A DNA stretch of 17,849 nucleotides from Pseudomonadota bacterium. GTDB taxonomy: Bacteria; Pseudomonadota; Alphaproteobacteria; Rhizobiales; Hyphomicrobiaceae. The position numbers were made by a program, and so were the translations under genes. The notes under the pieces are model-generated. The model was given only the letters and a program-made list of their open reading frames with translations, was not told the origin of the DNA and searched no databases. Positions 177 through 17,849 of the stretch are shown piece after piece (the first letter of the stretch is position 1; each line of letters starts with the position of its first letter). The stretch lies in contig JAEVZQ010000181.1 in the NCBI GenBank assembly GCA_023392135.1, positions 1 through 17,849 of the forward strand, written 5' to 3'.

Positions 177-294
177 TGTCGCCGGGAAAAAGATCACTGC
201 ACCCGCTCTCTCATTGCTGATTTCCATGCTCGTGCCGGCCATTCGGCCAGTATCGCGCCCATTCCCAAGCTCGCCCGCCCAGCTCTCATCGACC

Positions 295-585
295 TCACCC
301 TTTGAGCTCGATTTCTACGAAAGCGTACTCGCCATCGCTGGCGTTGATGACGTTGTGATGGACTCCCGCCTTTCGGAAATAGGAAACGCCGCGCTTCAGA
401 TCAGCGTAGGTCTCCTCGCCCTCCGGGGAAACCAGCTTCAGCCGTCCATCGGCCGACGGCACGACGACGTAATCCATCTCGTGCACATGGAAGCCCGTCT
501 CCGCGCCGGGCGCAAACCGCCATTCGGTGACACGGACCCGGTCGTTGTCCACCTGTACCGTCGGGACAGCCTGGGCTGCCGTCAT
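295..585 (-). CDS. Small single-domain cupin protein
   Basis: A 96-residue protein, about the usual size for a one-domain cupin. The first cupin motif is at residues 31-43 (GFHVHEMDYVVVP, with H33 and H35 as likely metal ligands). The second is near residues 68-81 (VSYFRKAGVHHNVIN, with H76/H77). There is no signal peptide, so it is probably cytoplasmic. The ATG at 583-585 overlaps the stop of the NuoEF-like gene in an ATGA arrangement, which implies translational coupling and fixes the start. A longer frame upstream only reads through the coding region of the neighbouring gene. Substrate and role are unknown. Coupling to a formate dehydrogenase subunit hints at a small-acid or metal-related accessory role, but the sequence does not prove it. 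Confidence 0.85.
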   Translation of the reverse strand: MTAAQAVPTVQVDNDRVRVTEWRFAPGAETGFHVHEMDYVVVPSADGRLKLVSPEGEETYADLKRGVSYFRKAGVHHNVINASDGEYAFVEIELKG

Positions 586-2303: not shown

Positions 2304-2306
2304 GGT

Positions 2307-3182: not shown

Positions 3183-4339
3183 CACGCCGCCTTCCGGGTT
3201 GCGAGTTGCACGGCCGTATTTGCTGCTTCCCACATGTCGCCCGTCTCTATGACAGGAACACCATAGCTTCTGAAGCGGCTCGCGGCGAATTCGGCATTGT
3301 TGCCGGCAAGCCGCATGACGATAGGTGCCGGGCAGGCCCTCCGGCGAACGGCAATGCCTATCCCGTCCGCGATCGTATCGCAGCGCTGCATGCCGCCGCC
3401 GTGCACGTTGACGAGCACGGCCCGGACGCGCGGATTGGCCGCGATCAGCTCGAAGGCATAAGCGATGTCGAGGGTCGAAGCCGTGGTGCGGATATCCATG
3501 AAGTTTGCCGGCCGGCCGCCTGCCGCGTGCAGAAGATCGAGCGTCGTCAGCGCCAGACCGGCCCCGTTGACGACCAGACCGATATCGCCGTCGAGCCGCA
3601 TGTAATTGATCTGATGAAGGTCCGCTGCCAAGGCGACAGGATCGCCGTGCTCCGCCTCACTCACCTCGCGTAGGGCAACGAGATCAGGATGGCGAAAGAG
3701 TGCGCTGTCGTCCACGTTCACTTTGGCATCGAGGGCGACGAGCTCGCCCGAAGGAGTAAGGACGAGAGGGCTCACTTCGACCAGCATGGCATCGAGCGCC
3801 ACCGCCGCTTCCGCAATTTGCGACATCCGCTTCGCCAGCAGCGACACTAGCGACGGCTCGACCCGAAGGGCCAATGCGGCCTCCTCGAAATCTCCCTTGA
3901 CACCCTGTTCGGACAATTCGAGGCGAACAGTGCTGCCGGCATTCGGGTCGGCATCGCGGTCCCGCGCGACGAGGATCAGCGCGCCGGCACTCCGGTCGAC
4001 CAGGACGGCGACGTAGAAATTGCGGGCGAAGGCGACAGCCTCCTCGACATAAACCCAGCGCACCTGCTGACCGGCGGGCCCCGTTTGGGATGTGACGAGC
4101 GGCGAGCCGATCAGCTCCGCTGCCGCTTTTCCGGCTTCATCGGAGCCCGATGTAAAACGAATGCCGCCATTCGCGGCACGATCACCTGCATGCACCTGCG
4201 CCTTGACCACGCATTGCTCCAGCCCCAAGCGACGCGCCACGGACATAGCCTCTGCCGGGCTCGCTGCTATCCGCCCGCGCGGGATGGGCACGCCGAATTG
4301 CGTCAGAAGCTCCTTGGCTTGGAATTCGTGCAGGTTCAT
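3182..4339 (-). CDS. Divergent succinyl-CoA ligase beta-like subunit
   Basis: A 385-residue SucC/MtkA-family protein starting MNLHEFQAKELL, with an ATP-grasp domain followed by the C-terminal CoA-ligase domain. An AGGAGGAG Shine-Dalgarno about 6 bases upstream supports the ATG at 4337-4339. K46 and the VNGAGLA motif with N258 are kept. Several otherwise near-invariant positions are changed. The nucleotide loop GRG (E. coli 53-55) reads DRA. The metal ligand Asn of EINPLV is Ser (EVSPLV, S190), while D204 is kept. DVGGGAT reads DIRTTAS. The substrate loop NIFGGI.RCD reads NVHGGGMQRCD with one extra residue. Both SucC and malate-CoA ligase MtkA normally keep these motifs. The gene is therefore a paralogue with probably altered substrate, or impaired nucleotide use. 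It opens the leftward operon and has a GntR-type operator about 170 bases upstream. Confidence 0.85.
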   Translation of the reverse strand: MNLHEFQAKELLTQFGVPIPRGRIAASPAEAMSVARRLGLEQCVVKAQVHAGDRAANGGIRFTSGSDEAGKAAAELIGSPLVTSQTGPAGQQVRWVYVEEAVAFARNFYVAVLVDRSAGALILVARDRDADPNAGSTVRLELSEQGVKGDFEEAALALRVEPSLVSLLAKRMSQIAEAAVALDAMLVEVSPLVLTPSGELVALDAKVNVDDSALFRHPDLVALREVSEAEHGDPVALAADLHQINYMRLDGDIGLVVNGAGLALTTLDLLHAAGGRPANFMDIRTTASTLDIAYAFELIAANPRVRAVLVNVHGGGMQRCDTIADGIGIAVRRRACPAPIVMRLAGNNAEFAASRFRSYGVPVIETGDMWEAANTAVQLATRKAA

Positions 4340-4742
4340 GGGACGCTCCTCCTGCAGCCCCCTGGCCCGTCGAACCGGCCATTTCTGGCCGTTTCCGCTT
4401 CTTGATCTTCCGCGTCGGGTGGCGGTGAACTGCAGCACTCTTGACGGCGCCCAGCGTTTCAGTCCGCTCCCGCAATCCAGTGTAGCCGAACAACACCGAC
4501 AATCTGGCATACCAAATACCATATGCCAATTGCGCGTCACTGTCGAGCATGCGACCATCAATCTGCAGACGGGACACGTTGCTCAGTTTTGAATGCGGGT
4601 GCTGCTTCTGGCGCACACCTCGGCGGCCGAGCAGATGTCGTCCGGGAGAGGGCTGCGATCCCCGATCGCACGCGAGTACGGGATGACAGTGCGTTCTTGA
4701 AAGAGCTGGCGCGAGGGAAGGTCTGCGCCACAGGAGAATGGG
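4340..4742. other. Divergent intergenic region, sucC-like / terC
   Basis: About 400 bases with no convincing gene; frames here have no recognisable protein and no ribosome site. It must hold the start signals for the leftward ligase/formate dehydrogenase operon and for the rightward terC gene. It contains the 24-base inverted repeat at 4505-4528 (listed separately). A second small perfect inverted repeat, TGCGATC-ccc-GATCGCA, lies at 4654-4670 upstream of terC and has no known role. I looked for the yybP-ykoY manganese riboswitch that often precedes TerC-like genes and did not find its conserved segments. Confidence 0.6.
4505..4528. promoter_or_regulatory. GntR-type operator, third copy, upstream of the sucC-like operon
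   Basis: A perfect inverted repeat, TGGCATA-N10-TATGCCA. Its left part, TGGCATACCA, differs by one base from the TGGTATACCA palindromes beside tctA and gntR. Read leftward, the site contains ATATGGTAT, which is shared with the tctA operator; gntR has GTATGGTAT. It overlaps a plausible promoter for the sucC-like gene: TCGACA (4546-4541), a 17-base spacer, then TATGGT (4523-4518). The overlap with the -10 suggests repression by the GntR protein encoded at 9618. It could also influence terC, but orientation favours the leftward operon. Confidence 0.6.
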
Positions 4743-5513
4743 ATGGAATTGCTAGTTGCGGCAGCCGCGTTCGGGGACCAATTCACCAGCTATGTTCAGG
4801 AACTGCTCGGGATCGACGCGACCATCATCGTAAACATCCTGCGCATCGTCGGCATCGACATCGTCCTTGCCGGTGACAATGCCGTTGTCATTGCGCTCGC
4901 GTGCCGATCTCTCCCGCCGCGACAGCGAATGGCCGGCATCATTCTGGGCGCCGGCGTTGCGGTGCTGCTGCGCATCTTTTTCACTATCCTGATTCAATTC
5001 CTTCTCGAGGTGCAGTGGCTGAAGTTGATCGGCGGCTGTCTTCTGTTCTGGATCGCCGTCAAGCTGCTCACGTCCGAAGAAGGCCAGGAAGGCAGCGTAA
5101 AGAGCGGGACCAGCCTGTTCGAGGCCGTTCGCATCGTCGCGATTGCTGATCTCGTGATGAGTCTGGACAATATGCTTGCGATTGCGGCCGCGGCCGGCGG
5201 CAATACGTATCTCATAATTTTCGGCTTGGCTCTCAGCATTCCCCTGGTCGTTGCCGGCTCGACGCTCATCATGACCCTGCTGACCCGTTTTCCGATTCTT
5301 GTATGGGGTGGTGCGGCGCTGCTCGGCTGGATCGCCGGCGAGTTGATCGCGACGGAGCCCGTCCTGCGTCCCTTCTTCGACAGTCTTGCGCAGAGCCTGC
5401 ACACGACACCGAAGGCCATCGCGCGTGCCATGGAGGTGATTGGCGCACTGGCAGTCATTCTGACTGGCTGGCTGATCGCACAGCGCGCCGGCCGAAAAGT
5501 CGGCCACAGCTGA
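4743..5513 (+). CDS. TerC/YjbE family integral membrane protein (metal-ion export type)
   Basis: A 256-residue protein with six to seven hydrophobic membrane segments and the two family signatures: GIDIVLAGDNAVVIALA (37-53) and DLVMSLDNMLAIA (about 136-148). The acidic D/N residues inside these helices are the conserved metal-coordinating candidates. TerC/YjbE relatives take part in manganese efflux or in metalation of exported proteins; the substrate here is not known. AGGAGA ending 5 bases before the ATG at 4743 supports the start. The protein sits alone between the two leftward operons and shares its upstream region with the sucC-like gene. A direct link to oxalate use is not evident. Confidence 0.85.
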   Translation: MELLVAAAAFGDQFTSYVQELLGIDATIIVNILRIVGIDIVLAGDNAVVIALACRSLPPRQRMAGIILGAGVAVLLRIFFTILIQFLLEVQWLKLIGGCLLFWIAVKLLTSEEGQEGSVKSGTSLFEAVRIVAIADLVMSLDNMLAIAAAAGGNTYLIIFGLALSIPLVVAGSTLIMTLLTRFPILVWGGAALLGWIAGELIATEPVLRPFFDSLAQSLHTTPKAIARAMEVIGALAVILTGWLIAQRAGRKVGHS

Positions 5514-6067
5514 GTCCGGCTCCAGTCTGACTTGGCGGCTCGATTCCGAGCACTGCGCTCGGGGTCAGGTGCGGGTGCGATCAGATCGCTCGCCTGATGT
5601 CTATTTAGAAGCAGGTAGCGGCAGGCACTCGCTTCACCTCTCCCGGAGTTAGAGGGCGGTCCGAAGGGCCGGGCACCACACCAGCGATCGTCGGACCCCA
5701 TCATCCCAACCCTCTCCGCATTGATGAAAAGGAGTTCGGGCGCGAGCTTTGGTTCGCTTCAACCTAAACCGGAAAACTCTAAGACACCACGACGTCGATC
5801 CGAGCCCCTCGGTCCTTGATTGCCGACCGGACCAGTGCGGGCACGAGGACATCCGATCTGGCTTCAGCGCCTCCTGTCAAGGCCGAAAGCGGCGCCGCGC
5901 AGCGCAGGCCTTTGGCGACACACGAGTTGCGCAAAGTTGACAGCGCGCCCGTTCTGCGTAGGCAAATACGGGAAGCCATGCCGCCTCCCGTCTCAGCCTT
6001 TTCATCGGACCCTCCCAAGTGCAGTCCGGTGCCAAACCGCAACACCGAAGAGCATCGGAAGCTATAA
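5514..6067. other. Long stretch without a convincing gene between terC and tctB
   Basis: About 550 bases. A GC-rich hairpin at 5546-5562 is listed separately. Leftward there are two short frames: one with ATG at 5977-5979 ending at 5779 (66 residues, GGGAGG 4 bases upstream), and an overlapping 42-residue frame that starts just downstream of tctB (MKRLRREAAWLPVF...) behind GGGAGGG. Neither resembles a family I know, and the composition (many Arg, Ala and Ser) is typical of chance frames in GC-rich DNA. It may be an eroded gene or untranslated trailer of the tct operon. Confidence 0.4.
5546..5562 (+). terminator. Possible terminator hairpin after terC
   Basis: Perfect 6-base inverted repeat CCGAGC-actgc-GCTCGG beginning 32 bases after the terC stop. 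There is no following T-run, so it is a weak candidate. It could equally be an mRNA 3' end structure. Confidence 0.35.
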
Positions 6068-6586
6068 TCAATAGCCGAAGAAATTCTCGACCGGCCCCTT
6101 CGGCAGAGGCACGAGAAACCAGATCTCAAAGAGGACAAAGAGGGCAAGCGGAATAGAGACACCAACCAAAACCGATCTGACGATCGACTCACGCCCCAGT
6201 ATCAGCATGAACGCGGTGATGAAAATCGCAGCCGCCACATAAAGCCCGAGGAGCTGGATCACCCAAACGAAAGCCAAGGTGGGGATCAAGACCGCGAGGA
6301 CGCGCATCAAGGCCGGTTTAGAAACAAACGACTCACTACCCGCGCCGCCACGCGCGAGCAGGGCGCGTAGCAAATTCATCACGCTGGAGAATGCCATGAT
6401 GGCCGCAATATAAAATGGAAAGTACCCTGATGCCGGCCCCTCGTTTTCCCGCCAATCGAACCCGAGCCGCGCACTGTCGTAGATGACGATCGCGCTCAGC
6501 AGGATAAGGAACAGCGCAGCGACGATGTCCATTGTCCTGTTGGAGACGACGCTCACCTCGTCGCCGGAACTGTCATTGCCGTGCAT
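6068..6586 (-). CDS. tctB: TTT transporter small membrane subunit (TctB family)
   Basis: A 172-residue protein with four predicted membrane helices, the usual size and shape of TctB. The first helix (about residues 18-36) follows a short polar N-terminus. The segment GPASGYFPFYIAAIM (around 49-63) is the family-like G..(Y/F)FP motif. The start was set at the ATG 6584-6586, preceded by AAGGAA at suitable spacing. A frame extending 11 residues further upstream lacks a ribosome site. TctB works with TctA in the inner membrane and with periplasmic TctC to import carboxylates by secondary transport. Here it is the last gene of the leftward order tctA-tctC-tctB. An 82-base gap with a strong hairpin separates it from tctC, which may lower its expression. 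Confidence 0.85.
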   Translation of the reverse strand: MHGNDSSGDEVSVVSNRTMDIVAALFLILLSAIVIYDSARLGFDWRENEGPASGYFPFYIAAIMAFSSVMNLLRALLARGGAGSESFVSKPALMRVLAVLIPTLAFVWVIQLLGLYVAAAIFITAFMLILGRESIVRSVLVGVSIPLALFVLFEIWFLVPLPKGPVENFFGY

Positions 6587-6624
6587 CGCCGTATTCCTTG
6601 GAGAACGATCGAGGAGCAAAAGAC

Positions 6625-6643
6625 AGACCGGAAAATCCGGTCT
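6625..6643 (-). terminator. Hairpin between tctC and tctB (attenuator or mRNA stabiliser)
   Basis: Perfect 8-base inverted repeat AGACCGGA-aaa-TCCGGTCT. A further partial arm TTCGGTCTG lies at 6651-6659, so two alternative stems are possible. In the direction of transcription the stem is followed by GTCTTTTG, a short T-run. It begins 26 bases after the tctC stop. Likely effect: partial termination, or protection of the upstream tctC message, giving more binding protein than TctB. Confidence 0.6.
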
Positions 6644-6669
6644 CGGAAAATTCGGTCTGCCTCAGGTTG

Positions 6670-7686
6670 TTACTTGCCAGCAGCGAGGAAGCCCGCTTCC
6701 TTCATAAGGTCGTAGTGGACCTTCTCGGCATTCTCGACCCACTTCTTGAACTCGTCGCCACTCATGAATGTCTGGTTGAACGCGCCATTATTCATGAAGG
6801 TCTTCCAGTCTTCGGTTTCCCTGATCTTCTGGAAGAGATCGACGTAGAATTTAACCTGGTCCTCGGTAACGCCGCCCGGCATGAAAATGCCGCGCAGCAT
6901 GTGGTACTCCACCGGCAGGCCAGCTTCCATGCAGGTCGGGATATCGCTCCACGCCTTGTCGCTCGTCACCTTTTCGGTATAGGTCGACCGCTTGCTGTCG
7001 AAGATGCAGAGCGGTTTGAGCGCGCCCGACTTCCAGTGCTGAACGGCCTCGATCGGATTGTTGACCGACGAGTTGATGTGCTTACCCACGAGCTGGACAG
7101 CGACCTTGCCGCCGCCCTGGAACGGTATGTAGGTGAACTTCTTACCGCCGGTCTCCCGTTCGATGGCGACCGTGATAATCTGATCCTCCTGCTTGGAGCC
7201 CGTACCACCCATCTTGAACTGCTTGTCGGCACCGGCCTTTACGGCCTCGGCGTATTCTTTCGCCGTATTATACGGAGCGTCCGCAGGCACCCACAGGACG
7301 AACTGGTCCAGCGCCAGCATGGCAACTGGCGTCATGTCCTTCCAGCTGAAGGGGGTTCCAGTGCTCAACGGTGTGGTGAACAGGTTCGAAAGAGTAATGA
7401 TGATCTTATGTGGGTCACCCTTGCTGTTCTTGACCTCGAGGAAGCCTTCCGCACCGGCGCCGCCCGACTTGTTGATCACCACGATGGGCTGATCCATCAG
7501 CTTGTGCTTGCTGACGACGCCCTGGATGAACCTTGCCATCTGGTCGGCACCGCCACCCGTTCCCGCAGGAATGATGAAGGTGACGGCCTTGGTCGGCTCC
7601 CATGCAGCGGCCGGCGGTGCAGTCATGGCGAGCACGGCTGCCAAACTACTTGCAACCGTTGTCAGCGCTTTATTCAGCTTGCGCAT
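6670..7686 (-). CDS. tctC: TTT transporter periplasmic solute-binding protein (TctC/Bug family)
   Basis: A 338-residue protein with a Sec signal peptide: positively charged MRKLNK, a hydrophobic core (VASSLAAVLAM) and an AxA-type site near APPAAA-W at about residue 28. The mature part begins with the Bug-family strand KAVTFIIPAGTGGGADQMAR, where the glycine-rich loop helps bind the carboxylate. Later features include VVINKSGGAGAEGF and VNNPIEAVQHWKSGALKPL. The start at ATG 7684-7686 is chosen because AAGGAG lies about 8 bases upstream and the signal peptide then has normal length. It captures a carboxylic acid in the periplasm for TctAB. Neighbouring oxc and frc suggest oxalate or a related dicarboxylate, but ligand specificity cannot be read from the sequence. 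Confidence 0.9.
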   Translation of the reverse strand: MRKLNKALTTVASSLAAVLAMTAPPAAAWEPTKAVTFIIPAGTGGGADQMARFIQGVVSKHKLMDQPIVVINKSGGAGAEGFLEVKNSKGDPHKIIITLSNLFTTPLSTGTPFSWKDMTPVAMLALDQFVLWVPADAPYNTAKEYAEAVKAGADKQFKMGGTGSKQEDQIITVAIERETGGKKFTYIPFQGGGKVAVQLVGKHINSSVNNPIEAVQHWKSGALKPLCIFDSKRSTYTEKVTSDKAWSDIPTCMEAGLPVEYHMLRGIFMPGGVTEDQVKFYVDLFQKIRETEDWKTFMNNGAFNQTFMSGDEFKKWVENAEKVHYDLMKEAGFLAAGK

Positions 7687-7789
7687 TCTCCAGCTCCTTT
7701 TTCGTTTCCTCAAAATCTTTTCTGATTGTTTTTGGAACCCTCGAGTGGTCCGTTCTTCAAGGTTCGCTCAGCACCTTGTCCCGCATTTG

Positions 7790-9295
7790 TCATGCGGCCT
7801 GCGGCTTTGGCTTCGCGTAGGCGATCAACATCCTGATCCCTGGCCAGAACAGCAAGATAAGGCCCAGCGTCATGATGCCGCCGACAAGCCAGTTCGAAAA
7901 GAATATCGCCATATCTCCCTGGCTCAGAAGCATGGCCTGCCGGAACGATCCCTCAGCCATATCCCCAAGCACCAGCGCCAGAACCAGCGGCGGCAGCGGA
8001 TAGCCGAGCTTGACGAAAACGTACCCTGCCACACCGAACACCACCATCATCCAGACGTCGAATATGGAGTTGTTCACCGTGTAGGCGCCCACCGCGCAGA
8101 TCACGAGGATCACCGGCGCAATGATCGAGAAGGGGATTCGCAAAATTGCGGCGAACAGCGGCACACACGTCAGGATGATCATGAGCCCGACGACGTTGCC
8201 GAGATACATGGAGGCGATCAACCCCCACACGAAGTCCGGTTGCTCGACGAACAGCATCGGCCCGGGTTGGAGGCCCCAGATCATGAGGCCACCGAGAAGC
8301 ACGGCCGCCGTCGGCGAGCCAGGGATGCCCAGTGTCAACATCGGAAGAAGTGCGCTCGTGCCAGCAGCATGAGCCGCGGTTTCTGGCGCGACGACTCCTT
8401 CTATTTCGCCCTTTCCGAAATTCTTCCCATTCTTCGAGAACTGTTTGGCGAGTCCGTAGCTCATGAACGACGCAGGCGTCGCGCCACCTGGGGTAATTCC
8501 CATCCAGCAGCCGATGATGCAGCTGCGCAAGAATGTGAACCAGAACTTCGGGAGCTGCTTCCACGTCTGCAGGACGGCGTCCATCCGAATCTTGGCCCGG
8601 GCACCTGAGAAGCTGAGCCCTTCCTCCATCGAGGAGAGAATCTCGCCGATACCGAACAAACCGATCACCGCGACGAGGAATACGAACCCGTTGAGCAGTG
8701 ACTCGAAACCGAAAGTCATCCGGAGCTGCCCGGTGACATTGTCGAGGCCGACGGAGGCCAAGGCGAAGCCGAGGCACATGGATGCAAGCGTCTTGAACGG
8801 CGAGCCTCTGCCCATCCCGATGAAACTTGCAAATGTCAGGAATTGAACTGCGAAGAATTCGGCTGGGCCGAACTGCAATGCAAAGCTGGCAACCAGCGGG
8901 GCGAGGAAGGTGATGACGATCACTGCGACGATCGCGCCGACGAACGATGAGGTAAATGCCGCCGTCAAGGCTTCATCGGCCCTCCCCTTCTGGGCCATGG
9001 GATGTCCGTCGAACGTCGTGGCGACAGACCACGGCTCGCCGGGAATATTGAACAGGATGGATGTGATCGCGCCGCCGAACAATGCCCCCCAATAAATGCA
9101 ACTCAGCATGATGATCGCCGAGGTCGGCGGCATCGCGAATGTGAGGGGAAGGAGAATTGCGACGCCATTTGCGCCGCCAAGGCCCGGCAGGACTCCGATG
9201 ATGACGCCGAGAAGGATACCTACGAGCATCAGCAGCAGGTTGAACGGCGTCAGAACGACGGCGAAGCCCTGCATAAGCGAGGCGATTTCTTCCAA
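7790..9295 (-). CDS. tctA: TTT transporter large membrane subunit (TctA family)
   Basis: A 501-residue, highly hydrophobic protein of normal TctA length (about 500), with roughly ten to twelve membrane segments. Family hallmarks are GVLPGLGGANGVAILLPLTF near residues 34-53 and, in the second half, the repeat-like MGITPGGATPASFMSYGLAK and LTLGIPGSPTAAVLLGGLM. It is the transport channel of the TTT system. The start is a TTG at 9293-9295. No in-frame ATG upstream fits, the resulting N-terminus aligns with other TctA proteins, and GAGAGG lies about 10 bases upstream. It is the first gene of the tctA-tctC-tctB unit, with its promoter and operator in the region shared with gntR. A 103-base gap with no clear structure separates it from tctC. 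Confidence 0.9.
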   Translation of the reverse strand: MEEIASLMQGFAVVLTPFNLLLMLVGILLGVIIGVLPGLGGANGVAILLPLTFAMPPTSAIIMLSCIYWGALFGGAITSILFNIPGEPWSVATTFDGHPMAQKGRADEALTAAFTSSFVGAIVAVIVITFLAPLVASFALQFGPAEFFAVQFLTFASFIGMGRGSPFKTLASMCLGFALASVGLDNVTGQLRMTFGFESLLNGFVFLVAVIGLFGIGEILSSMEEGLSFSGARAKIRMDAVLQTWKQLPKFWFTFLRSCIIGCWMGITPGGATPASFMSYGLAKQFSKNGKNFGKGEIEGVVAPETAAHAAGTSALLPMLTLGIPGSPTAAVLLGGLMIWGLQPGPMLFVEQPDFVWGLIASMYLGNVVGLMIILTCVPLFAAILRIPFSIIAPVILVICAVGAYTVNNSIFDVWMMVVFGVAGYVFVKLGYPLPPLVLALVLGDMAEGSFRQAMLLSQGDMAIFFSNWLVGGIMTLGLILLFWPGIRMLIAYAKPKPQAA

Positions 9296-9377
9296 CGGAC
9301 GTTTTCCTCTCTATTCATTTTCAACCAGGGTTCTCGATGCCCCGGTCGCTCACAACGTGCGCATCCGTTGCGAATTT

Positions 9378-9393
9378 TGGTATACCATATACC
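9378..9393. promoter_or_regulatory. GntR-type operator at the tctA promoter
   Basis: Perfect palindrome TGGTATACCA at 9378-9387, continuing as ATACC so that GGTATA-cca-TATACC (9379-9393) is also an inverted repeat. It overlaps the predicted -10 (TATATG) of tctA. FCD-subfamily GntR regulators commonly bind short T-G-G-T-x-x-A-C-C-A-like palindromes, and the regulator gene lies next door. Confidence 0.7.
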
Positions 9394-9543
9394 GGCAGTC
9401 GCTTGATGCGCAATCCCGGACTTGATGCTGCTCGGGAATTGCGGTCTTCACATAGCGACCGAAATGCAACCGCCTGTTTACCTGACCGTCAACACCTAGC
9501 GAAACGCGCGTATCGACTTGCCCGCGACAGTGCGTCTGGTGTA

Positions 9544-9553
9544 TGGTATACCA
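9544..9553. promoter_or_regulatory. GntR-type operator at the gntR-oxc-frc promoter
   Basis: Perfect palindrome TGGTATACCA, identical to the tctA copy, overlapping the predicted -10 of gntR (TGTATG 9540-9545). It lies 64 bases before the chosen gntR start. Autoregulation is the simplest reading. The operator also shows that the in-frame ATG at 9543 is not the translation start. Confidence 0.7.
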
Positions 9554-9617
9554 GCATTGTCTGGAAAAATGCTCCGTTTCCCGGTGGAGAACGGATTCAA
9601 CTCGCTCAGGCGTTCGG

Positions 9618-10304
9618 ATGGCCAATACGCAGATCAGGATCACGCCTCTCGGAGAGGCCCAGAGTCTCAAGACTCGGGCCTATGAGGCGCTGAAATCGGC
9701 CATTCTCAACATGAACATCTATGACAGCAATGCCGAGCTGCGTCTCGACGAGCGCCAGCTCTCGGCCCAGTTCGGCGTCAGCCGCACGCCGTTGAGGGAG
9801 GCTCTGGCCCAACTCGACCAGGAAGGGCTGGTCCGCATCGTTGCGCGTCGCGGAATTTACATCGTGCGCAAGACGAAGGCCGAAATCCTGGAGATGATCA
9901 CTGTCTGGGCCGCGCTCGAAAGCATGGCGGCTCGCCTGGCTACCAAGGAAGCAACCGACAGCGAGATCGCCAGCCTGCACGACCTGATCGATGCCTTTTC
10001 CACCGACGAGGTTGCCCGCAAGACGGGTGAGTACTCGGACGCCAATATCCGCTTTCACCAAGCCATCATCGGGCTTGGCAAGTGCGAGCTGATCCGCGAG
10101 CTTACGAACAAGCTGTTCTTTCACGTTCGCGCCATGCGGCATCGGACGATTTTCGAGCAGGACCGCGCACGGCGATCCGTCGTCGATCACAAGGAAATCG
10201 TCGCAGCACTCGAAGCGCGCGATACCGAACGGGCCGAGCGGCTGGTGCGCGAGCACACGCTGCGGCTGAGAGATCACGTTGAACGCTACGTCGACCTCGA
10301 CTAG
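9618..10304 (+). CDS. GntR family transcriptional regulator, FCD subfamily
   Basis: A 228-residue regulator. Residues 15-80 form the winged helix-turn-helix (LDERQLSAQFGVSRTPLREAL followed by the wing VRIVARRGIYIV). Residues 90-220 form the all-helical FCD sensor domain, with the usual Asp/His metal or ligand set: the D and H of SDANIRFHQAI, the H of VVDHKEIV and the H of VREHTLRL. The start at ATG 9618 is preferred over ATG 9543 because the latter lies inside the operator. No strong ribosome site is seen, so the start is somewhat uncertain. The gene heads the oxc-frc cluster (33 bases to oxc) and diverges from the TTT operon. It probably represses these promoters until a small organic acid such as oxalate or a CoA-pathway product binds; the effector is inferred. 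Confidence 0.88.
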   Translation: MANTQIRITPLGEAQSLKTRAYEALKSAILNMNIYDSNAELRLDERQLSAQFGVSRTPLREALAQLDQEGLVRIVARRGIYIVRKTKAEILEMITVWAALESMAARLATKEATDSEIASLHDLIDAFSTDEVARKTGEYSDANIRFHQAIIGLGKCELIRELTNKLFFHVRAMRHRTIFEQDRARRSVVDHKEIVAALEARDTERAERLVREHTLRLRDHVERYVDLD

Positions 10305-10337
10305 CGCCCCCGCAAAAAGACCTGAGGAAGGAGCGAA

Positions 10338-12077
10338 ATGTCCGCGACAGCGCAAGGCATCGAGGCACAAGCAGCCGCTGAAGAGCAGGAGCTGACAGAT
10401 GGCTTTCATCTCGTCATCGAAGCGCTCAAGCTCAACGGCATCACAACCATATACGTTGTGCCTGGAATCCCGATTACGGACCTGGGTCGCATGGCGCAGG
10501 CCGAGGGCATGCGGGTCATCTCATTCCGTCACGAGCAGAACGCCGGAAATGCAGCCGCAATTGCCGGGTTCCTGACGAAGAAGCCCGGCATCTGCCTCAC
10601 CGTTTCGGCGCCCGGCTTCCTCAATGGCCTGACCGCGCTCGCGAACGCCACGACCAACTGTTTCCCGATGATCCTGATGAGCGGCTCGTCCGAGCGCGAG
10701 ATCATCGACCTGCAGCAGGGCGACTATGAGGAGATGGATCAGCTCGCGATCGCCAAGCCGCTGTGCAAGGCAGCCTTCCGTGTCCTGCACGCACAGGATA
10801 TCGGCATTGCCGTTGCGCGCGCCATCCGCGCGGCGGTCTCGGGGCGACCGGGTGGCGTCTACCTCGATCTGCCTGCAAAGCTTTTCCCGCAGGTGCTGAC
10901 GGCTGAGGCGGGAGCCAAGTCGCTGGTCAAGGTGATCGATCCGGCACCGGCGCAAATCCCTGCTCCATCTGCCGTCAATCGCGCGCTCGATGTCCTCAAG
11001 GGCGCCAAACGGCCTCTCATCATCCTCGGCAAGGGCGCGGCCTATGCGCAGGCTGATGACGACATCCGTGCCCTCGTCGAGAAAACGGGCATTCCATTCC
11101 TGCCCATGAGCATGGCCAAGGGTCTCCTGCCCGATACGCATCCGCAGTGCGCGGGCGCGGCGCGCTCGCTGGTGCTGAAAGAGTCCGACGTGGTGATGCT
11201 GGTCGGCGCCCGCCTCAACTGGCTGCTGTCTCACGGCTAGGGCAAGACCTGGGGCAACGCACCCAAGAAGTTCATCCAGATCGACATCGAGCCCAAGGAG
11301 ATGGACTCGAACGTCGAGATCGCTGCTCCCGTAGTCGGCGATATCGGCTCCTGCGTGTCCGCGCTGCTCGGTGGCATCGGCAGCAACTGGCCCGCTCCGC
11401 CCGCCGACTGGGTCAATGCCGTCAAGGCGAAGAGGGAAGAAAACATCGCCAAGATGGCGCCGAAGCTGATGAAGAACACGGCGCCCATGGACTTCCACGG
11501 TGCGCTCGGCGCACTGCGCACGGTCGTTAAAGAGCGCCCCGATGCGATCCTCGTCAACGAGGGTGCCAACACGCTCGACCTCGCGCGGGGCGTCATCGAC
11601 ATGTACCAGCCGCGCAAGCGCCTGGACGTGGGCACCTGGGGCGTCATGGGCATCGGCATGGGATTCTCCATCGCGGCGGCCATCGAGACCGGAAAGCCTG
11701 TGCTTGCAGTGGTGGGCGACAGCGCCTTCGGCTTCTCCGGGATGGAGGTCGAAACAATCTGCCGCTACAAGCTGCCGGTCTGTGTCGTTGTCTTCAACAA
11801 CAGCGGCATCTACCGCGGCGTCGACGTCAATCCGACTGGCGGTCCCGACGTTTCGCCGATGGTCTTCGTCAAGGACGCGCGCTACGACAAAATGATGGAA
11901 GCCTTCGGCGGCGCAGGCGCCCATGTGACGACGCCCGACGAACTGTATCGTGCCGTCAGTGCCGCGATGGACTCCGGCAAGCCGACCCTCATCAATGCAG
12001 TGATCGACCCCGCGGCCGGAACGGAAAGCGGCCGCATCGGCAACCTCAACCCGCAAAGCGTGGTCAAAAAGAAGTAA
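10338..12077 (+). pseudogene. oxc: Oxalyl-CoA decarboxylase interrupted by one in-frame TAG
   Basis: The frame encodes 579 residues (family 560-570) if one amber codon is passed. Oxc is a thiamine diphosphate enzyme that converts oxalyl-CoA to formyl-CoA and CO2. Visible parts are the N-terminal Pyr domain with E66 in [11 protein letters not shown], the middle domain, and the C-terminal PP domain with VVGDSAFGFSGMEVETICRY through VVFNNSGIYRG (about 459-492), the Mg/ThDP site. TAG at 11238-11240 (codon 301) falls in [17 protein letters not shown], where relatives read (L/A)HGKGK(S/T)W, so AAG->TAG explains it. The frame stays open and conserved to 12077. Termination would give 300 residues without the ThDP-binding domain, hence inactive. 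The next ATG (11301) has no properly spaced ribosome site. GAGGAAGGAG before ATG 10338 is a strong start. The change is either real or a sequencing error. Confidence 0.9.
11238..11240 (+). other. Premature amber codon inside oxc
   Basis: TAG in frame with the two conserved halves of oxalyl-CoA decarboxylase. It replaces a lysine codon that family members keep (HGKGK). A single A->T change in AAG suffices. Flanking residues on both sides match the family without any gap, so there is no frameshift. Confidence 0.92.
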
Positions 12078-12090
12078 GGGAGGCATGCAA

Positions 12091-13362
12091 ATGAAAGCTC
12101 TTGAAGGAGTGCGTATCCTCGATTTCACCCACGTGCAGTCCGGCCCCACCTGCACACAGCTTCTGGCCTGGTTCGGCGCCGATGTGATCAAGGTCGAGCG
12201 ACCCGGCGTCGGCGACATCACGCGCGGGCAGCTTCAGGACGTGCCGAAAGCGGACAGCCTCTATTTCACGATGCTGAACCACAACAAGCGGTCGATCACG
12301 CTCGACGCCAAGCACCCCAGAGGCAAGGACGTGCTGGAGCGGCTGATCAAAACCTGCGACGTGCTCGTGGAGAACTTCGCACCCGGCGTTCTGGACCGGA
12401 TGGGTTTTTCCTGGGAGCGTATCCAGGAGCTCAATCCGCGCATGATCTACGCTTCCATCAAGGGCTTCGGTCCGGGGCCCTACGAGGATTGCAAGGTCTA
12501 CGAGAACGTCGCCCAGTGCACGGGCGGTGCGGCCTCCACCACCGGTTTCGACGACGGCCCACCGCTCGTCACCGGTGCACAGATCGGTGATAGCGGGACC
12601 GGCCTGCATCTCGCACTCGGTATCGTCACGGCTCTCTATCACCGCACACACTCGGGCCGAGGCCAGCGCGTCACCTGCGCGATGCAGGACGGTGTGCTCA
12701 ACCTCTGCCGCGTCAAGCTGCGCGACCAGCAACGTCTCGCCCACGGGCCACTGACCGAATATCCGCAGTTCAGCGAGGGCAAGGAGTTCGGCGAAGCAGT
12801 GCCGCGTTCGGGCAACGCCTCGGGCGGCGGCCAGCCGGGCTGGATCCTGAAGTGCAAGGGCTGGGAGACCGATCCCAATGCCTACATCTATTTCATTACG
12901 CAGGCGCCCGTGTGGGAGAAGATCTGCGACGTGATCGGCGAGCCCGAGTGGAAGGCCCATCCCGATTTCGCAACGCCCAAAGCGCGTCTGCCGCGTCTCA
13001 AGCAGGTGTTCGACCGCATCGAGCAGTGGACCATGACCAAGACGAAGCTCGAGGCCATGGAGATCCTCAACAACTACGACATCCCCTGCGGCCCGATCCT
13101 GTCCATGAAGGAGTTGGCGCAGGACCAGTCGTTGCGCGCGACCGGCACGATCGTCGAGGTCGACCATCCGACCCGTGGCAAGTACCTGAGCGTCGGCAAT
13201 CCGATCAAGCTCTCCGCAAGCCCTGCAGACGTAAAGCGCTCGCCCCTTCTCGGCGAGCACACGGATGAAATTCTTCGCGATGTGCTCGGCTATAGCGAGG
13301 AGGAGCTTGCCGCGATCAGGGAAGCCACCGAGCCACAACCGAAACGGGTTGCTGCGGAGTGA
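12091..13362 (+). CDS. frc: Formyl-CoA:oxalate CoA-transferase
   Basis: A class III CoA-transferase of 423 residues (Oxalobacter formigenes Frc is 428). It moves CoA from formyl-CoA to oxalate, making the oxalyl-CoA used by Oxc and releasing formate. It opens [19 protein letters not shown]. The catalytic aspartate is in [10 protein letters not shown] (D167 here, equivalent to D169 of Oxalobacter). [19 protein letters not shown] and the glycine loop SGGGQPGW, followed by KCKGWETD, also match Frc rather than other family members such as BaiF or CaiB. An upstream ATG at 12085 gives two more residues but sits 1 base from the GGGAGG site (12078-12083). ATG 12091 has the proper 7-base spacing and fits the family start better. 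The gene lies 13 bases after oxc, so the two are cotranscribed. It ends at a TGA followed by a REP-like hairpin. Confidence 0.93.
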
Positions 13363-13387
13363 CGATCGCCGATCCCCGCCACCTCAC

Positions 13388-13409
13388 CGTCATCCCCGCG
13401 GAGGCGGGG
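13388..13409 (+). repeat. REP-like palindrome, copy 1 (after frc)
   Basis: CGTCAT followed by a 6-base stem CCCCGC-ggag-GCGGGG (hairpin 13394-13409), 31 bases after the frc stop. The left half and the stem match copies 2 and 3, but the right flank (TGGCGGAT) differs. It may act as a transcript end after oxc-frc. Confidence 0.7.
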
Positions 13410-13485
13410 TGGCGGATGGGGAATCGGGATCGAGGCGGGTGGCAGAACATCAGTAATCAAGTGAACACCTCCGCCCGCTTGAATC

Positions 13486-13515
13486 CGTCATCCCCGCTCA
13501 GGCGGGGATCCACGC
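13486..13515 (+). repeat. REP-like palindrome, copy 2 (left flank of GIY-YIG gene)
   Basis: A 30-base unit: CGTCAT, stem CCCCGC-tcag-GCGGGG, then ATCCACGC. It matches the reverse complement of copy 3 at 27 of 30 positions. Two of the three differences form a compensating base-pair exchange in the stem. Confidence 0.8.
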
Positions 13516-13546
13516 AAGGTGATTGTTAGTTCGACAATTCCGTTTG

Positions 13547-13910
13547 ATGACTAGTCCCCGTGGTCTGAAACAAACTTGCGTCTATATGCTCGCAAGCAGG
13601 CGAGATGGGATCCTTTACGTCGGGGTGTCGAGTGATCTTTTCGGACGCGTGAATCTCCACAAACAAGACTTGATTGATGGATTCACCAAAAAGTACGGTG
13701 TCCACTCGCTCGTGTATTATGAGATGTACGCAACAATGCCGGAGGCAATTCGGCGGGAGAAGCAGCTCAAGAAATGGAATCCGCGCCTGGAAAGTTCGTC
13801 TCATCGAACAAGTGAACCCCGAATGGTCGGATCTTTGGGACGAGACTGGCGAAATCCGCATGAGATCGGCGAGCGGCCAGCAACCGCCTCCCGATGCGGA
13901 AATCCTATGA
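13547..13910 (+). pseudogene. GIY-YIG endonuclease-domain protein, frameshifted
   Basis: The first frame gives a typical small GIY-YIG protein: CVYMLASRRDGILYVGVSSDLFGRV (GIY...YIG equivalents VYM and LYVG, with R at the end), then FTKKYGVHSLVYYE and EAIRREKQLKKWN. After N at 13778-13780 the sequence has CC where one C is expected. The proper end (RAWKVRLIEQVNPEWSDLW) continues in the next frame from 13782 to TGA 13908-13910. Removing one C at 13781-13782 gives about 120 residues, close to the usual 95-110. Proteins of this group are poorly characterised; the domain is a single-strand or nicking nuclease fold. It sits between frc and the folate gene and between inverted REP-like hairpins. A start at ATG 13547 is plausible, and an internal ATG (MLASRR) is an alternative. 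Confidence 0.82.
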
Positions 13911-13917
13911 GGACTTG

Positions 13918-13947
13918 GCGTGGATGCCCGCCTGCGCGGGCATGACG
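13918..13947 (-). repeat. REP-like palindrome, copy 3 (right flank of GIY-YIG gene, inverted)
   Basis: GCGTGGAT, stem GCCCGC-ctgc-GCGGGC, then ATGACG (sharing the C). It is the inverted counterpart of copy 2 and starts 8 bases after the GIY-YIG stop. An ATG inside it is in frame with the folate gene but belongs to the repeat, not to the protein. Confidence 0.8.
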
Positions 13948-13982
13948 GCCAAGAATCGGAAACATCGATCGGAAGGGATCAC

Positions 13983-16622
13983 ATGCGCATCGTAGTTCAC
14001 GGGCAAGAGGCCTTCGGCAAGGCGGTCCTGGAGAAACTGCTCGAACGCGGCGAAAACGTCGTTGCCGTATTCTGTGCCCCGGACAAGGAGGGCAAGGCGC
14101 GCGACCCGCTCGCGGTCTTCGCTGCAGAGAAGGGGCTGCCCGTTCACCAGCCGAAGTCCTGGAAGACGCCCGAAGCACTTGAATTGATGCGCTCCTTCGA
14201 GCCCGATCTGTGCGTGATGGCGTACGTGACGCTCTTCGTGCCACAGCCCGTGATCGATACCCCACGTCTCGGAACCATCCAGTACCACCCATCGCTTCTG
14301 CCGCTGCACCGCGGTCCCTCATCGATAAATTGGCCCATAGCCATGGGCCGCACGCGTACCGGCCTCACGGTCTTCTGGCCGGATGAGGGCCTCGATGAAG
14401 GTCCGATTCTCCTGCAGAAAGAAGTCGACATCGGCCCGGACGAAACGTTGGGCGACGTCTACTTCAAGAAGCTGTTCCCCATCGGCGTCGACGCCATGAT
14501 GGAGGCGGTGGACCTCGTGCGCGCGGGCAAGGCGCCGAAAATACCGCAGGATCATTCGAAGGCGACCTATGAGAGCTGGTTCAAGAAGGATCTGGCCGAG
14601 ATCGACTGGTCGAAGCCCGTTTCCGAAGTCTACAACCTGATCCGCGCCAGTAATCCTGCCCCCGCCGCGTGGAGCATGCTCAAGGGCGCCCGGATCGACA
14701 TCTTCGATTCCGCCAAGCTCGACGGCTCGGGGGCACCCGGTGAAATCATGGCCATCACCGGCGACGGCATTCAGGTCGCCGCCAAGGGTGGTCGCATTCT
14801 CGTAAAACGACTTCGCGCTGCCGGTGGTCAGAAGATTCCTGCAACCGAATATGCAGTCTCCGCTGGGCTCAAGGTCGGAGACCGGTTCGATCCGCCATCG
14901 CCCAAACCAGCAACAACAGCAAAGAAGCAGTCAGGAGGAACGTCCGTGGCCGTCAAATCGGATATCGAGATATCGCGTGAGGCCAAGATGAGGCCGATCG
15001 CAGAGGTCGGCAAAAAGATCGGCATTCCTTCCGAGGCGCTGCTGAACTACGGCCCCACGAAGGCGAAGGTCTCATTCGATTTCGTCAATTCGCTGAAAGA
15101 CCGGAAAGACGGCAAGCTGATCCTGGTGTCGGCCATCAACCCGACACCTGCCGGCGAGGGCAAGACCACGACGACAGTCGGTCTCGGCGACGGGCTGAAC
15201 CGGATCGGCGCCAAGGCCATGTGCTGCCTGCGCGAGCCGTCGCTCGGCCCGTGCTTCGGCATGAAGGGCGGTGCGGCCGGCGGTGGGTACGCCCAGGTGG
15301 TGCCGATGGAGGATATCAATCTCCACTTCACCGGCGACTTCCACGCCATCACGTCGGCGAACAACCTGCTGGCTGCACTGATCGACAATCACATCTACTG
15401 GGGCAACGGCCTGGGCATCGACCCGCGGCGCGTATCCTGGCGCCGTGTCATGGATATGAACGACCGTGCGCTGCGCTCCATCATCAACTCGCTCGGCGGG
15501 GTGTCGAACGGTTTCCCGCGGCAGGACGGCTTCGACATTACGGTCGCCTCCGAGGTCATGGCGATCCTCTGCCTGGCAACCGACCTGAACGATCTCCGGC
15601 GCCGGCTCGGCAACATCGTTTTCGGCATCACGCGGGACAGGAAGCCGATCTACGCGCGCGATCTCAAGGCTGATGGCCCCATGACCGTTCTGCTCAAGGA
15701 CGCGCTGATGCCGAACCTGGTGCAGACGCTGGAGAACAACCCCGTGTTCGTCCACGGCGGGCCGTTCGCCAATATCGCACACGGCTGCAACTCGGTGCTG
15801 GCAACGAAGACGGCGTTGAAGCTCGCCGACTACGTCGTCACGGAAGCCGGGTTCGGTGCCGACCTCGGGGCGGAGAAGTTTTTCGACATCAAGTGCCGTA
15901 AGGCCGGCCTCAAGCCCTCGGCGGCGGTAATCGTCGCCACCGTCCGGGCGCTCAAGATGCATGGCGGCGTGGCCAAGGAGGACCTCAAGGGCGAGAACGT
16001 CGAGGCAGTCCGCAAGGGTGCGGAAAACCTCAAGCGCCATCTGGAGAACGTCGCCAAGTTCGGCATCCCACCGGTGGTGGCGATCAATCGCTTCGTCACG
16101 GATACGGATGCCGAGGTCGCGGCTGTGAAGGAGCTCGCCGAGAGCATGGGGACACGCGCGTTCCTGTGCACGCACTGGGCCGACGGCGGCAAGGGCACCG
16201 AAGACCTGGCCCGCCATGTCGTCGAGCTGTGCGACAGCGGAAAGGCGGACTTCAAGCCGCTCTATCCCGACGAGATGCCGCTGTGGGACAAGATCAAGAC
16301 GATCGCCACGCAGCTCTATGGGGCGTCCGACATCAGCGCCGATGCTTCAGTGCGCAGCCAGCTCAAGGACTTCGAGGCCAACGGCTACGGCAAGCTGCCG
16401 ATCTGCATGGCCAAGACGCAGTACTCGTTCTCCACCAACCCCAACCTGCGCGGTGCCCCTTCAGGCCATGTCGTGCCCATTCGTGAGGTGATCCTGTCCG
16501 CGGGTGCAGAGTTCGTGGTCGTGGTCTGCGGCGATCTCATGCGCATGCCGGGCCTGCCCCGCGTGCCCTCAGCCGAGCAGATGTACGTCAACGAGCACGG
16601 GCACATCGAGAACCTGTCCTGA
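13983..16622 (+). CDS. fhs: Fused 10-formyl-THF hydrolase/formyltransferase domain and formate-tetrahydrofolate ligase
   Basis: An 879-residue ORF with two complete domains. Residues 1-310 resemble the N-terminal formyltransferase/hydrolase domain of 10-formyl-THF dehydrogenase (ALDH1L): [20 protein letters not shown] with H102, then [17 protein letters not shown] with D138. This is the same 36-residue His-Asp spacing as H106/D142 of ALDH1L1. After a Pro/Ala/Lys linker (about 305-321), residues 322-879 are a full-length FTHFS (558 residues). It has [14 protein letters not shown], the ATP loop [16 protein letters not shown], and the [31 protein letters not shown] signature. FTHFS makes 10-formyl-THF from formate, ATP and THF. 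GGAAGG 6 bases before ATG 13983 sets the start; a further upstream ATG (13920) lies in a REP-like repeat. A strong internal ribosome site may also yield FTHFS alone. The role of the first domain is open: hydrolase, or formyl donor/acceptor exchange with formyl-CoA. Confidence 0.88.
14933..14948 (+). promoter_or_regulatory. Internal ribosome binding site and GTG start for the FTHFS domain
   Basis: AGGAGGAA (14933-14940) followed by GTG at 14946-14948, a 7-base gap from AGGAGG. The GTG is exactly in frame with the upstream domain and precedes AVKSDIEIS, where free-standing FTHFS proteins begin. The resulting 558-residue product has the normal family length. It suggests a two-gene ancestry, or two products from one frame. 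Confidence 0.65.
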
Positions 16623-16631
16623 CACGCCTGC

Positions 16632-16660
16632 ACCCTCTCCCTGCCACGCGGGGAGAGGGT
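16632..16660. terminator. Bidirectional terminator hairpin between the folate gene and the SDR gene
   Basis: Perfect 10-base inverted repeat ACCCTCTCCC-N9-GGGAGAGGGT, 10 bases after the FTHFS stop and 32 bases beyond the convergent SDR stop. There is no long T-run on either side. The position between convergent genes supports a shared transcript end. Similar CCCTCTCC repeats are also common intergenic elements in Alphaproteobacteria. Confidence 0.6.
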
Positions 16661-16691
16661 CGGATTGCCCAGACTTGAAGGGATCAGCGCC

Positions 16692-17471
16692 CTACATCGT
16701 CCCCGGGAAAGCGCCGCCGTCGATCACGATATTCTGGCCGGTGATGTAGCCGGCGTGGGCGGAGCATAGGAAGGCGGCCGTCGCGCCGAACTCTTCCGGA
16801 GTCCCGAAGCGCTTTGCCGGAACCTCGCCCTTGCGCGCCGCGTGCACCGCCTCGTAAGGCTGGCCACGAGCTTCGGCGATCTTCTGCGACGTAGCCCTGA
16901 GGCGATCCGTTTCGAAAGGTCCAGGCAGCAGCGCGTTGATCGTGACGTTCCGGTGCACCGTCTTGCGGGCGAGCGCGGCGACAGCGCCGGTAAGACCGGA
17001 ACGGGCGCCGTTCGACAGCTCGAGAGTCGGGATGGGCGCTTTCACGGACGAGCTGGTGATGTTCACGATGCGTCCGAAGCCGCGCTCCATCATGCCGTAG
17101 ACGGTCGCGTGAATGAGCGCGATCGGCGTCAGCATGTTGCCTTCGACGGCCTTGCGCCAGTCGTCGAGCGAGAAGTCCTTGAAGTCTCCCGGAGGCGGAC
17201 CACCGGCGTTGTTGATCAGAATATCCGGGCTGGGACAGGCGGACAGCAGCGCCCGGCGGCCTTCGTCCGTAGTGACGTCGCAGGCGACGGCCGTAACGCT
17301 TGCCGCGCCCAGCCCGCGCAGTTGCTCCGCCGTCGCGTCGAGTGCCTCCTTGCCGCGGGCGCAAATAGTCAGTGCAGCGCCTTCGCGCGCCAGCGCCTCT
17401 GCGCAGCCCCTGCCCAGTCCCTTCGAAGCGGCACAGACGATGGCCGACCTGCCTCTGATGCCAAGATCCAT
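16692..17471 (-). CDS. Short-chain dehydrogenase/reductase with a non-classical active site
   Basis: A 259-residue protein of the classical SDR size. It has the nucleotide loop AIVCAASKGLGRGCAEAL (10-27), CDV (64-66), NNAG (87-90), the serine strand GRIVNITSSS (133-142), and the C-terminal TGQNIVIDGGAFPG. The catalytic Tyr-x3-Lys is absent. At the right distance from the serine the sequence is LELSNGARSGL, so S153 and R157 stand where Tyr and Lys should be. A known subset of FabG-like annotated SDRs shows this pattern; its reaction is not established. The start at ATG 17469-17471 fits the family N-terminus (MDLGIRGRSA), with GGAGG about 12 bases upstream. A frame 25 residues longer exists but is atypical. 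It faces the folate gene and follows corA in the same direction with a 132-base gap. A link to oxalate use is not shown. Confidence 0.85.
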   Translation of the reverse strand: MDLGIRGRSAIVCAASKGLGRGCAEALAREGAALTICARGKEALDATAEQLRGLGAASVTAVACDVTTDEGRRALLSACPSPDILINNAGGPPPGDFKDFSLDDWRKAVEGNMLTPIALIHATVYGMMERGFGRIVNITSSSVKAPIPTLELSNGARSGLTGAVAALARKTVHRNVTINALLPGPFETDRLRATSQKIAEARGQPYEAVHAARKGEVPAKRFGTPEEFGATAAFLCSAHAGYITGQNIVIDGGAFPGTM

Positions 17472-17603
17472 GGCTATCGTGATCCTCCGTTGTTGATGGA
17501 GGGAGACTATGCGCGCCCCTGCATGATGTCGACCACGCTTGCCCATGGAGACCTGCGCGTATGACGACCGCTGGCTCTCGTGTGGCAGAGCGCGGTGGCC
17601 CTC

Positions 17604-17849
17604 CTATAACCAGCCCTTGCGCCGGAAGTAGAGGAACGGCAGCACCGCGGAGAGCACCATCAGCAAGAGCGCCATCGGATAGCCGAAGCTCCAATCGAGC
17701 TCGGGCATGGCACGGAAGTTCATGCCGTAAATGGACGCCACCAGCGTCGGCGGAAGCAGCACGACGGCCACGACCGAAAAGAGCTTGATGATCTGATTCT
17801 GCTCTATGGAAACCAGCCCCAGCGAGGCATCCAGCATGAAGGTTAGCCG
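17604..17849 (-). CDS. corA: CorA-type magnesium/cobalt transporter, C-terminal end (partial)
   Basis: The visible 81 residues run from [22 protein letters not shown] to the stop TAG at 17604-17606. They hold the two C-terminal membrane helices and the hallmark YGMNF motif in the loop between them ([13 protein letters not shown]). The second helix is [18 protein letters not shown], and the basic tail RRKGWL completes the CorA end. CorA forms a homopentameric inner-membrane channel for Mg2+ (or Co2+/Ni2+). The large cytoplasmic N-terminal domain and the start lie beyond the right edge. Confidence 0.92.

Follow-up and report, generated by a model that had tools for sequence, protein, structure and literature searches.

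A single open reading frame on the forward strand of contig JAEVZQ010000181.1 (positions 13983-16622), from an alphaproteobacterium of the Hyphomicrobiaceae (assembly GCA_023392135.1), joins a formyltransferase/hydrolase-like domain to a complete formate-tetrahydrofolate (THF) ligase (FTHFS), and lies in an oxalate operon that codes for a predicted maker (oxalyl-CoA decarboxylase, Oxc) and a predicted user (formyl-CoA:oxalate CoA-transferase, Frc) of formyl-CoA. On the grounds of sequence and of analogy with characterised enzymes, we propose that the fused protein may be a bifunctional exchanger of formyl groups belonging to this operon, with the supply of formyl-CoA as its main role, a reading to which we assign a probability of about 0.45. 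The window referred to below is the whole 17,849-nucleotide stretch that was analysed (positions 1 to 17,849 of the contig).

Translation of the window gives 879 codons and a stop without interruption, and the protein matches three Pfam domains, Formyl_trans_N (residues 1-161, 2.5e-30), Formyl_trans_C (201-291, 3.3e-19) and FTHFS (325-878, 3.1e-270), bearing out an earlier note on this DNA that had described an ALDH1L-type hydrolase domain and a full FTHFS in one frame. The first two matches make up the N-terminal domain (residues 1-291; 13983-14855, forward strand), which is ALDH1L-hydrolase-like and carries the triad H102/S104/D138: both domains are complete, and the residues listed in that note (H102, D138 and the FTHFS ATP loop) are joined by the third member of the triad, S104. 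The FTHFS domain (14955-16616, forward strand) spans model positions 2-556 of 557 of the equivalog NF010030 with 926 bits (cut-off 652); like Methylobacterium extorquens FTHFS (7c11) it is full length, above the equivalog cut-off and equipped with the ATP loop, and unlike the usual free-standing enzyme of about 557 amino acids (aa) it forms the C-terminal part of a longer frame. The two are connected by a Pro/Ala/Lys/Gly-rich linker of about 22 residues (approximately 302-323; 14886-14951, forward strand), which, as reported earlier, contains no stop codon, and model confidence falls below 50 over residues 308-337. Although a longest-ORF call begins upstream at GTG 13920 and yields 900 aa, we prefer ATG 13983 as the start, because 13 stand-alone and 20 fused relatives aligned share MRIVVHGQ at this position and GGAAGGG lies directly 5' of it; some predictions of stand-alone relatives have an N-terminal extension before this motif. 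The three Pfam families found in the fusion include no carrier-protein domain with a pantetheine serine, and there was no Pfam match in it to a C-terminal aldehyde dehydrogenase, to the enoyl-CoA-hydratase-like C-terminal domain of HypX, or to an ACT domain such as the PurU hydrolase carries at its N-terminus. Prediction from the single sequence gave a poor fold (pLDDT 35.3); an alignment of 21 fused proteins brought the overall value to 64.3, with a good N-terminal domain and a mediocre FTHFS part, and the leading Foldseek matches of this fold were FTHFS 7c11 (2.7e-43) and the ALDH1L hydrolase domain 4qpd (5.3e-30).

Judged from its sequence, the first domain is of the ALDH1L type and not of the Fmt type, in agreement with the earlier note. 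Against solved structures, ALDH1L hydrolase domains rank at the top (zebrafish, 6e-67), followed by Fmt (best match 1.3e-45), ArnA and HypX (7.6e-14). We compared the domain with ALDH1L, Fmt and HypX by pairwise scores, and aligned 11 Fmt proteins (L091 was left out): in BLAST the zebrafish and rat ALDH1L domains are 39.7 and 39.2% identical to it (231 and 221 bits; about 306 residues), as opposed to 28-34% and 119-157 bits for the 11 true Fmt proteins from related genomes. Fmt has the same two Pfam domains, but the window domain reaches only 165.2 bits against the Fmt model TIGR00460 (cut-off 201.5), and the AGRG insertion loop, which has a tRNA role in Fmt, occurs in all 11 Fmt proteins and in none of 81 aligned N-domain rows. 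These rows are the window and the best 80 loci among 406 confirmed relatives from a scan of one genome per species with the N-terminal domain. H102, S104, D138, R110 and Y196 are invariant across them and F85 is kept in 79; F85, R110 and Y196 align with F89, R114 and Y200 of zebrafish ALDH1L, and the zebrafish counterparts of the kept residues are catalytic or folate-site residues according to the available sections of PMC4388273 and PMC6802093. The likeness to ALDH1L1 and ALDH1L2 thus covers fold, triad and folate-site residues, and extends to the placing of the hydrolase domain at the N-terminus of a natural fusion, 10-formyl-THF dehydrogenase; unlike ALDH1L, the window protein lacks the carrier-protein and aldehyde dehydrogenase domains and has FTHFS as its partner. 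The earlier note had called FTHFS a normally free-standing protein, which stands, and had taken ALDH1L-type domains to be normally joined to an aldehyde dehydrogenase, which overlooks that in bacteria the domain is commonly encoded by a gene of its own, with frc and FTHFS as neighbours.

The two genes form a conserved pair of operon neighbours, and their fusion is the rarer state. Among the 80 loci, FTHFS lies within 1.5 kb downstream of the N-domain gene in 59, of which three are fused; in the 56 split ones, 3-292 bases separate the stop of the first gene from the start of the second. The other 21 loci have no FTHFS match: ten end within 1 kb of the N-domain gene (in two of these, L059 and L060, the first FTHFS residues were seen at weaker thresholds), and in the remaining 11 there was no match in the 1.7-10 kb of sequence present. 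A search of some 5.8 billion proteins, in which 8000 candidates were scored and 120 of them listed, answered the earlier note's call to look for the same domain pair elsewhere: all three Pfam domains occur in 38 of the 120 (63-94% identity; 878-898 aa, except one of 797), and their linkers differ from one another in both length and composition. Of 103 genomes from the family of G004, 84 gave a match at E<=1e-250, which in four (G001, G004, G007 and G408) ran uninterrupted over residues 1-878; in eight more, the match had this length but contained stops, in the manner of split genes. We therefore ruled out an assembly error or missing stop as the cause of the fusion, and a base error is very unlikely; the possibility entertained earlier, that relatives would all have two separate genes and the window a sequencing mistake, is contradicted by the fused relatives and their varying linkers.

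How long fusions last was read from a quick-method tree of the N-terminal domain alone (97 rows, 41 fused and 56 split, the partial sequences P0011 and P0039 being excluded). On this tree a minimum of three changes accounts for the fused state, as compared with a mean of 31.3 for shuffled labels, and the minimum is still three when the long row P0040 is removed (96 rows), so that fusion arose or was lost more than once. That the changes are so few, and that the 38 listed fused proteins reach down to 63% identity, indicates that fusions have been kept over long times. FTHFS is single-copy in 24 of 30 genomes of relatives, and in three fused hosts (G001, G004 and G007) the fused FTHFS is the only one found, which fits a protein serving general one-carbon needs too.

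Within the linker, a Shine-Dalgarno-like AGGAGG (14933-14938, forward strand) stands 7 nucleotides before an in-frame GTG at 14946, from which a separate FTHFS of 558 aa could be started (14946-16622, forward strand). In duplex energy with the 16S tail, this GTG ranks first of the 47 in-frame ATG/GTG codons of the gene (-10.3, vs -6.2 for the gene's own start). The ranking covers five distinct fused genes, and the corresponding junction site comes first of 48 in L001, first of 38 in L013, second of 51 in L005 and seventh of 45 in L112. GGA makes up five of the 83 Gly codons of the fused gene, and two of these five form the AGGAGG site; in the six split relatives inspected, FTHFS begins at ATG, in several behind a similar purine-rich site. 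The junction thus looks like a gene fusion that still retains the ribosome-binding site of its second gene, and it is plausible that a separate FTHFS is also made from GTG 14946. The 879-residue product anticipated by the earlier note has its open frame, and with so strong an internal site it may not be the only product.

The fused gene belongs to a run of same-strand genes headed by a GntR/FCD regulator (9543-10304; Pfam), followed by oxc (10338-12077) and frc (12085-13362; TIGR03253, 732.7 bits, equivalog cut-off 504.2). In the window, oxc is interrupted by an in-frame TAG (11238-11240): its halves score 557.8 and 407.4 bits against TIGR03254 (cut-off 739.4), the first half by itself passes NF006721 (562.6 vs 557), and the gene is otherwise collinear; in each of the 53 relatives that were checked, the frame is open throughout the matched stretch. 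The TAG could be a real pseudogene in the strain or a sequence error. The neighbourhood was examined, as the earlier note had suggested: 71 of the 80 loci carry frc upstream in the same orientation, no more than 1.5 kb away (67 of the 75 having at least 1.5 kb of upstream sequence), and 73 loci have a gene for a thiamine pyrophosphate (TPP) enzyme, which is oxc in 53, 2-hydroxyacyl-CoA-lyase-like in 14 and a split, sulfopyruvate-decarboxylase-like enzyme in six (none in seven). Other neighbours are GntR regulators (58 loci), TctA (41), succinate-CoA-ligase-like genes (26) and FdhB (17). The lyase-like protein matches 2-hydroxyacyl-CoA lyases best among solved structures (1.4e-78; 3.2e-48 to YfdU-type Oxc), and such lyases cleave their substrates to formyl-CoA, as described in the accessible part of PMC11271303. 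Counting oxc and lyase-like genes together, a predicted formyl-CoA-making enzyme is thus present at 67 of the 80 loci. In L002, L006, L007, L010, L030, L068, L071 and L073, among the 14, the lyase-like gene replaces oxc with frc, the N-domain gene and FTHFS kept; such loci possibly serve an uncharacterised 2-hydroxyacid pathway by way of formyl-CoA. A lyase-like gene was also seen in two genomes of 1.4 Mb (L094 and L102), with no FTHFS match on the stretch fetched.

An oxalate operon of this kind is also found in a cultured marine isolate, on plasmid pLA6_002, where sucD, sucC and an isochorismatase-family gene diverge from a run made up of a regulator gene, oxc, frc, 'fmt_2', 'fhs_2', genes for a universal stress protein and an 'argininosuccinate lyase', tctB and tctA. 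This was the only match at E<=1e-60 in 72,556 plasmid records (53.7% identity). The isochorismatase-family gene (L141:2053-2658) sits between sucCD and the oxalate operon. A universal stress protein gene follows FTHFS in L025 as well, and its cluster occurs on 11 loci. Beyond the 80 loci, 289 genomes were drawn evenly from the class (with the centre genome, G008, included in all counts): a relative of the N-terminal domain was present in 21, an over-cut-off Oxc in 12 and both in nine; in three genomes (G086, G117 and G304) the N-domain gene and Oxc share a strand and are 1.4-1.8 kb apart, as in the operon.

In the mechanism we propose, the N-terminal domain would move formyl groups between 10-formyl-THF and the thiol of CoA in either direction by means of H102/S104/D138, and FTHFS would connect 10-formyl-THF to formate and ATP, such that formate + CoA + ATP would be interconverted with formyl-CoA + ADP + Pi, with THF as the shuttle. 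There are precedents for such a transfer: the ALDH1L hydrolase domain hands formyl to a 4'-phosphopantetheine thiol, and HypX, which acts in CO synthesis for NiFe hydrogenase, has been proposed to hand it to CoA, both as given in the available parts of PMC8748788 and PMC6802093. The N-terminal domain of HypX shares the triad His and Asp with the window protein (about 24% identity over 204 residues); its Ser is replaced (PMC6802093, in the sections at hand) and is kept in the window protein, and HypX alone has the enoyl-CoA-hydratase-like C-terminal domain. The Oxc/Frc cycle regenerates formyl-CoA without adding to it, so that any loss has to be made good by fresh synthesis before the cycle can run again; we take supply as the main role, in which the formyl-CoA so made would prime the cycle. 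E. coli, where oxc and frc are likewise adjacent and the cycle has the same need, has the acetyl-CoA:oxalate CoA-transferase YfdE, for which a priming role in oxalate use in the absence of formyl-CoA has been proposed (PMC3720670, as far as its accessible text goes); unlike E. coli, the window has a folate pair beside frc, which could take over this job, and no second CoA-transferase was found among the subset of window ORFs scanned. The same enzyme might run in reverse, turning formyl-CoA into 10-formyl-THF for biosynthesis or gaining ATP. The fusion would hold both steps together, and free FTHFS may be produced as well by way of the internal start; this would matter since no FTHFS other than the fused one was found in the three fused hosts counted. 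A wider version of the proposal would make the protein a folate-shuttled formyl-CoA synthetase (or, in reverse, a source of ATP from formyl-CoA) produced in two forms through the internal start, and a member of a widespread, misnamed formyl-CoA:THF formyltransferase family linking the CoA and folate one-carbon pools in oxalate and 2-hydroxyacyl-CoA catabolism; taken as a whole, we regard this version as doubtful.

Several observations weigh against formyl exchange with CoA. Transfer of formyl from THF to CoA is energetically uphill, which argues against the supply direction in particular. No convincing CoA-binding residue shared with HypX was found in the aligned N-domain rows: HypX Arg131, which contacts the CoA diphosphate, aligns with F161 in all 81 (the position being taken from an alignment with Cupriavidus necator HypX, equal numbering assumed), and the adjacent K162 is Lys in just 55; moreover, both HypX domains contribute contacts to CoA, and the fusion lacks a counterpart of the C-terminal one. 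The lyase-like enzyme also matches 8vzk, labelled oxalyl-CoA decarboxylase (6e-68), and benzaldehyde lyase (7.8e-64), and reaches no NCBIfam cut-off among the models shown. Six of the 80 loci (L044, L050-L053 and L066) lie behind the split TPP enzyme and lack frc. The co-occurrence of N-domain and Oxc genes in the 289 genomes (odds ratio 66, Fisher p 1.7e-9) is uncorrected for kinship, and three of the 12 Oxc genomes show no N-domain relative, so the N-domain step is not essential for oxalate use. Neighbourhoods were obtained from 17 of the other 20 genomes with an N-domain relative: frc is present in seven, and ten, whose N-domain relatives are 54-62% identical, have neither frc nor such TPP genes, so that the wider family is not tied to formyl-CoA. 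In one of the ten (L098), FTHFS directly precedes the N-domain gene, in the opposite order, and no common theme emerged among the neighbours of the distant relatives (SpoU, coproporphyrinogen oxidase, ATP sulfurylase, acyl-CoA dehydrogenase, hydantoinase, DEAD helicase and a 2OG-oxygenase). As to the split TPP decarboxylase, it resembles sulfopyruvate decarboxylase, and its TPP N and C parts reside in two genes (L044 and L051 inspected).

Other activities of the N-terminal domain are conceivable. The closest solved relatives of the domain are hydrolase domains, as would be expected of a PurU-like valve, in which it would hydrolyse 10-formyl-THF to formate and THF whenever FTHFS over-traps folate, giving the protein two opposed, regulated activities. 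A high formate load during growth on oxalate would trap folate; in the available text of PMC4388273, ALDH1L hydrolysis is discussed with 2-mercaptoethanol as the thiol, and the residues named there align and are kept save K205, dispensable in that enzyme and variable here. Nevertheless, joining opposed activities with no regulatory domain in sight would waste ATP (Pfam showed no further domain), and the tie to frc and formyl-CoA-making enzymes would be left unexplained, which leads us to regard a valve as unlikely. We consider it equally improbable that the domain formylates a carrier protein or small amine, with the oxalate operon just supplying formyl groups: the superfamily has many acceptors, to go by the names of the structure matches, and neither frc nor such a TPP gene is present at ten of the 17 loci of the wider family, but the identified recurrent clusters (transporter, regulator, CoA-ligase, dehydrogenase and universal stress protein) include no carrier-protein or amine-pathway gene. 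The clusters without an identification include c12 (ten loci), which has no Pfam match. A 580-aa ORF (L034:16854-18596), whose cluster occurs near the operon on ten of the 80 loci, matched nothing in Pfam at 0.001 or in NCBIfam at 1e-10. Least probable by far is a second Fmt that formylates initiator tRNA, as the database name 'methionyl-tRNA formyltransferase' of the stand-alone relatives and the 'fmt_2' of the plasmid copy would have it; we rejected this identity on the sub-cut-off TIGR00460 score, the missing AGRG loop and the presence of a separate, over-cut-off Fmt in 29 of 30 host genomes of relatives (the exception being G003).

Whether the joining of the two genes itself matters is a separate question, since a functionless fusion, in which the stop of the first gene was lost, FTHFS is still started internally and the activities are those of the split relatives, would be compatible with any of the activities above. 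The AGGAGG-GTG at the junction, ranked first or second in four of the five fused genes, and the excess of split over fused loci (56 to 3) are consistent with it; the rank of seventh in L112 and the long retention of fusions, with at least three changes on the tree vs 31.3 for shuffled labels and 38 listed proteins down to 63% identity, speak against it, and we hold a fusion without function to be rather unlikely.

The remainder of the window contains, divergent from the operon, genes for TctB, TctC and TctA of a tripartite carboxylate transporter (6068-9295, reverse strand; Pfam) and a succinate-CoA-ligase-like pair (2307-4561, reverse strand; sucD-like 2307-3233, sucC-like within 3182-4561). 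This succinate/malate-CoA-ligase-like pair passes the alpha cut-off and not the beta cut-offs, and adjoins a NuoE+NuoF-like fused protein (582-2303, reverse strand; Pfam and NCBIfam), probably a formate dehydrogenase beta subunit. Between frc and the fusion, a 140-aa GIY-YIG ORF (13523-13945, forward strand) lies beside short repeats, with three copies of a CGTCATCCCCGC/CGTCATGCCCGC element in 13387-13947; GIY-YIG matches occur at the same position in two of the 80 loci (L001 and L029), and the ORF and repeats look like a small mobile or repeat-associated element.

The earlier note knew of no characterised enzyme with this architecture, and in the titles and opening abstract lines of the open-licence papers listed we found no description of the fusion, of a formyl-CoA/THF formyltransferase or of FTHFS or Fmt in oxalate operons, an absence that carries little weight. 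If the N-terminal domain does exchange formyl between CoA and THF, it would connect formyl-CoA, from the breakdown of oxalate and 2-hydroxyacyl-CoA, to folate one-carbon metabolism, a link that we did not find described. It would also correct the label 'methionyl-tRNA formyltransferase' on many database proteins, and would offer an enzymatic way, driven by ATP, of making formyl-CoA, which is of interest in work on synthetic C1 pathways.

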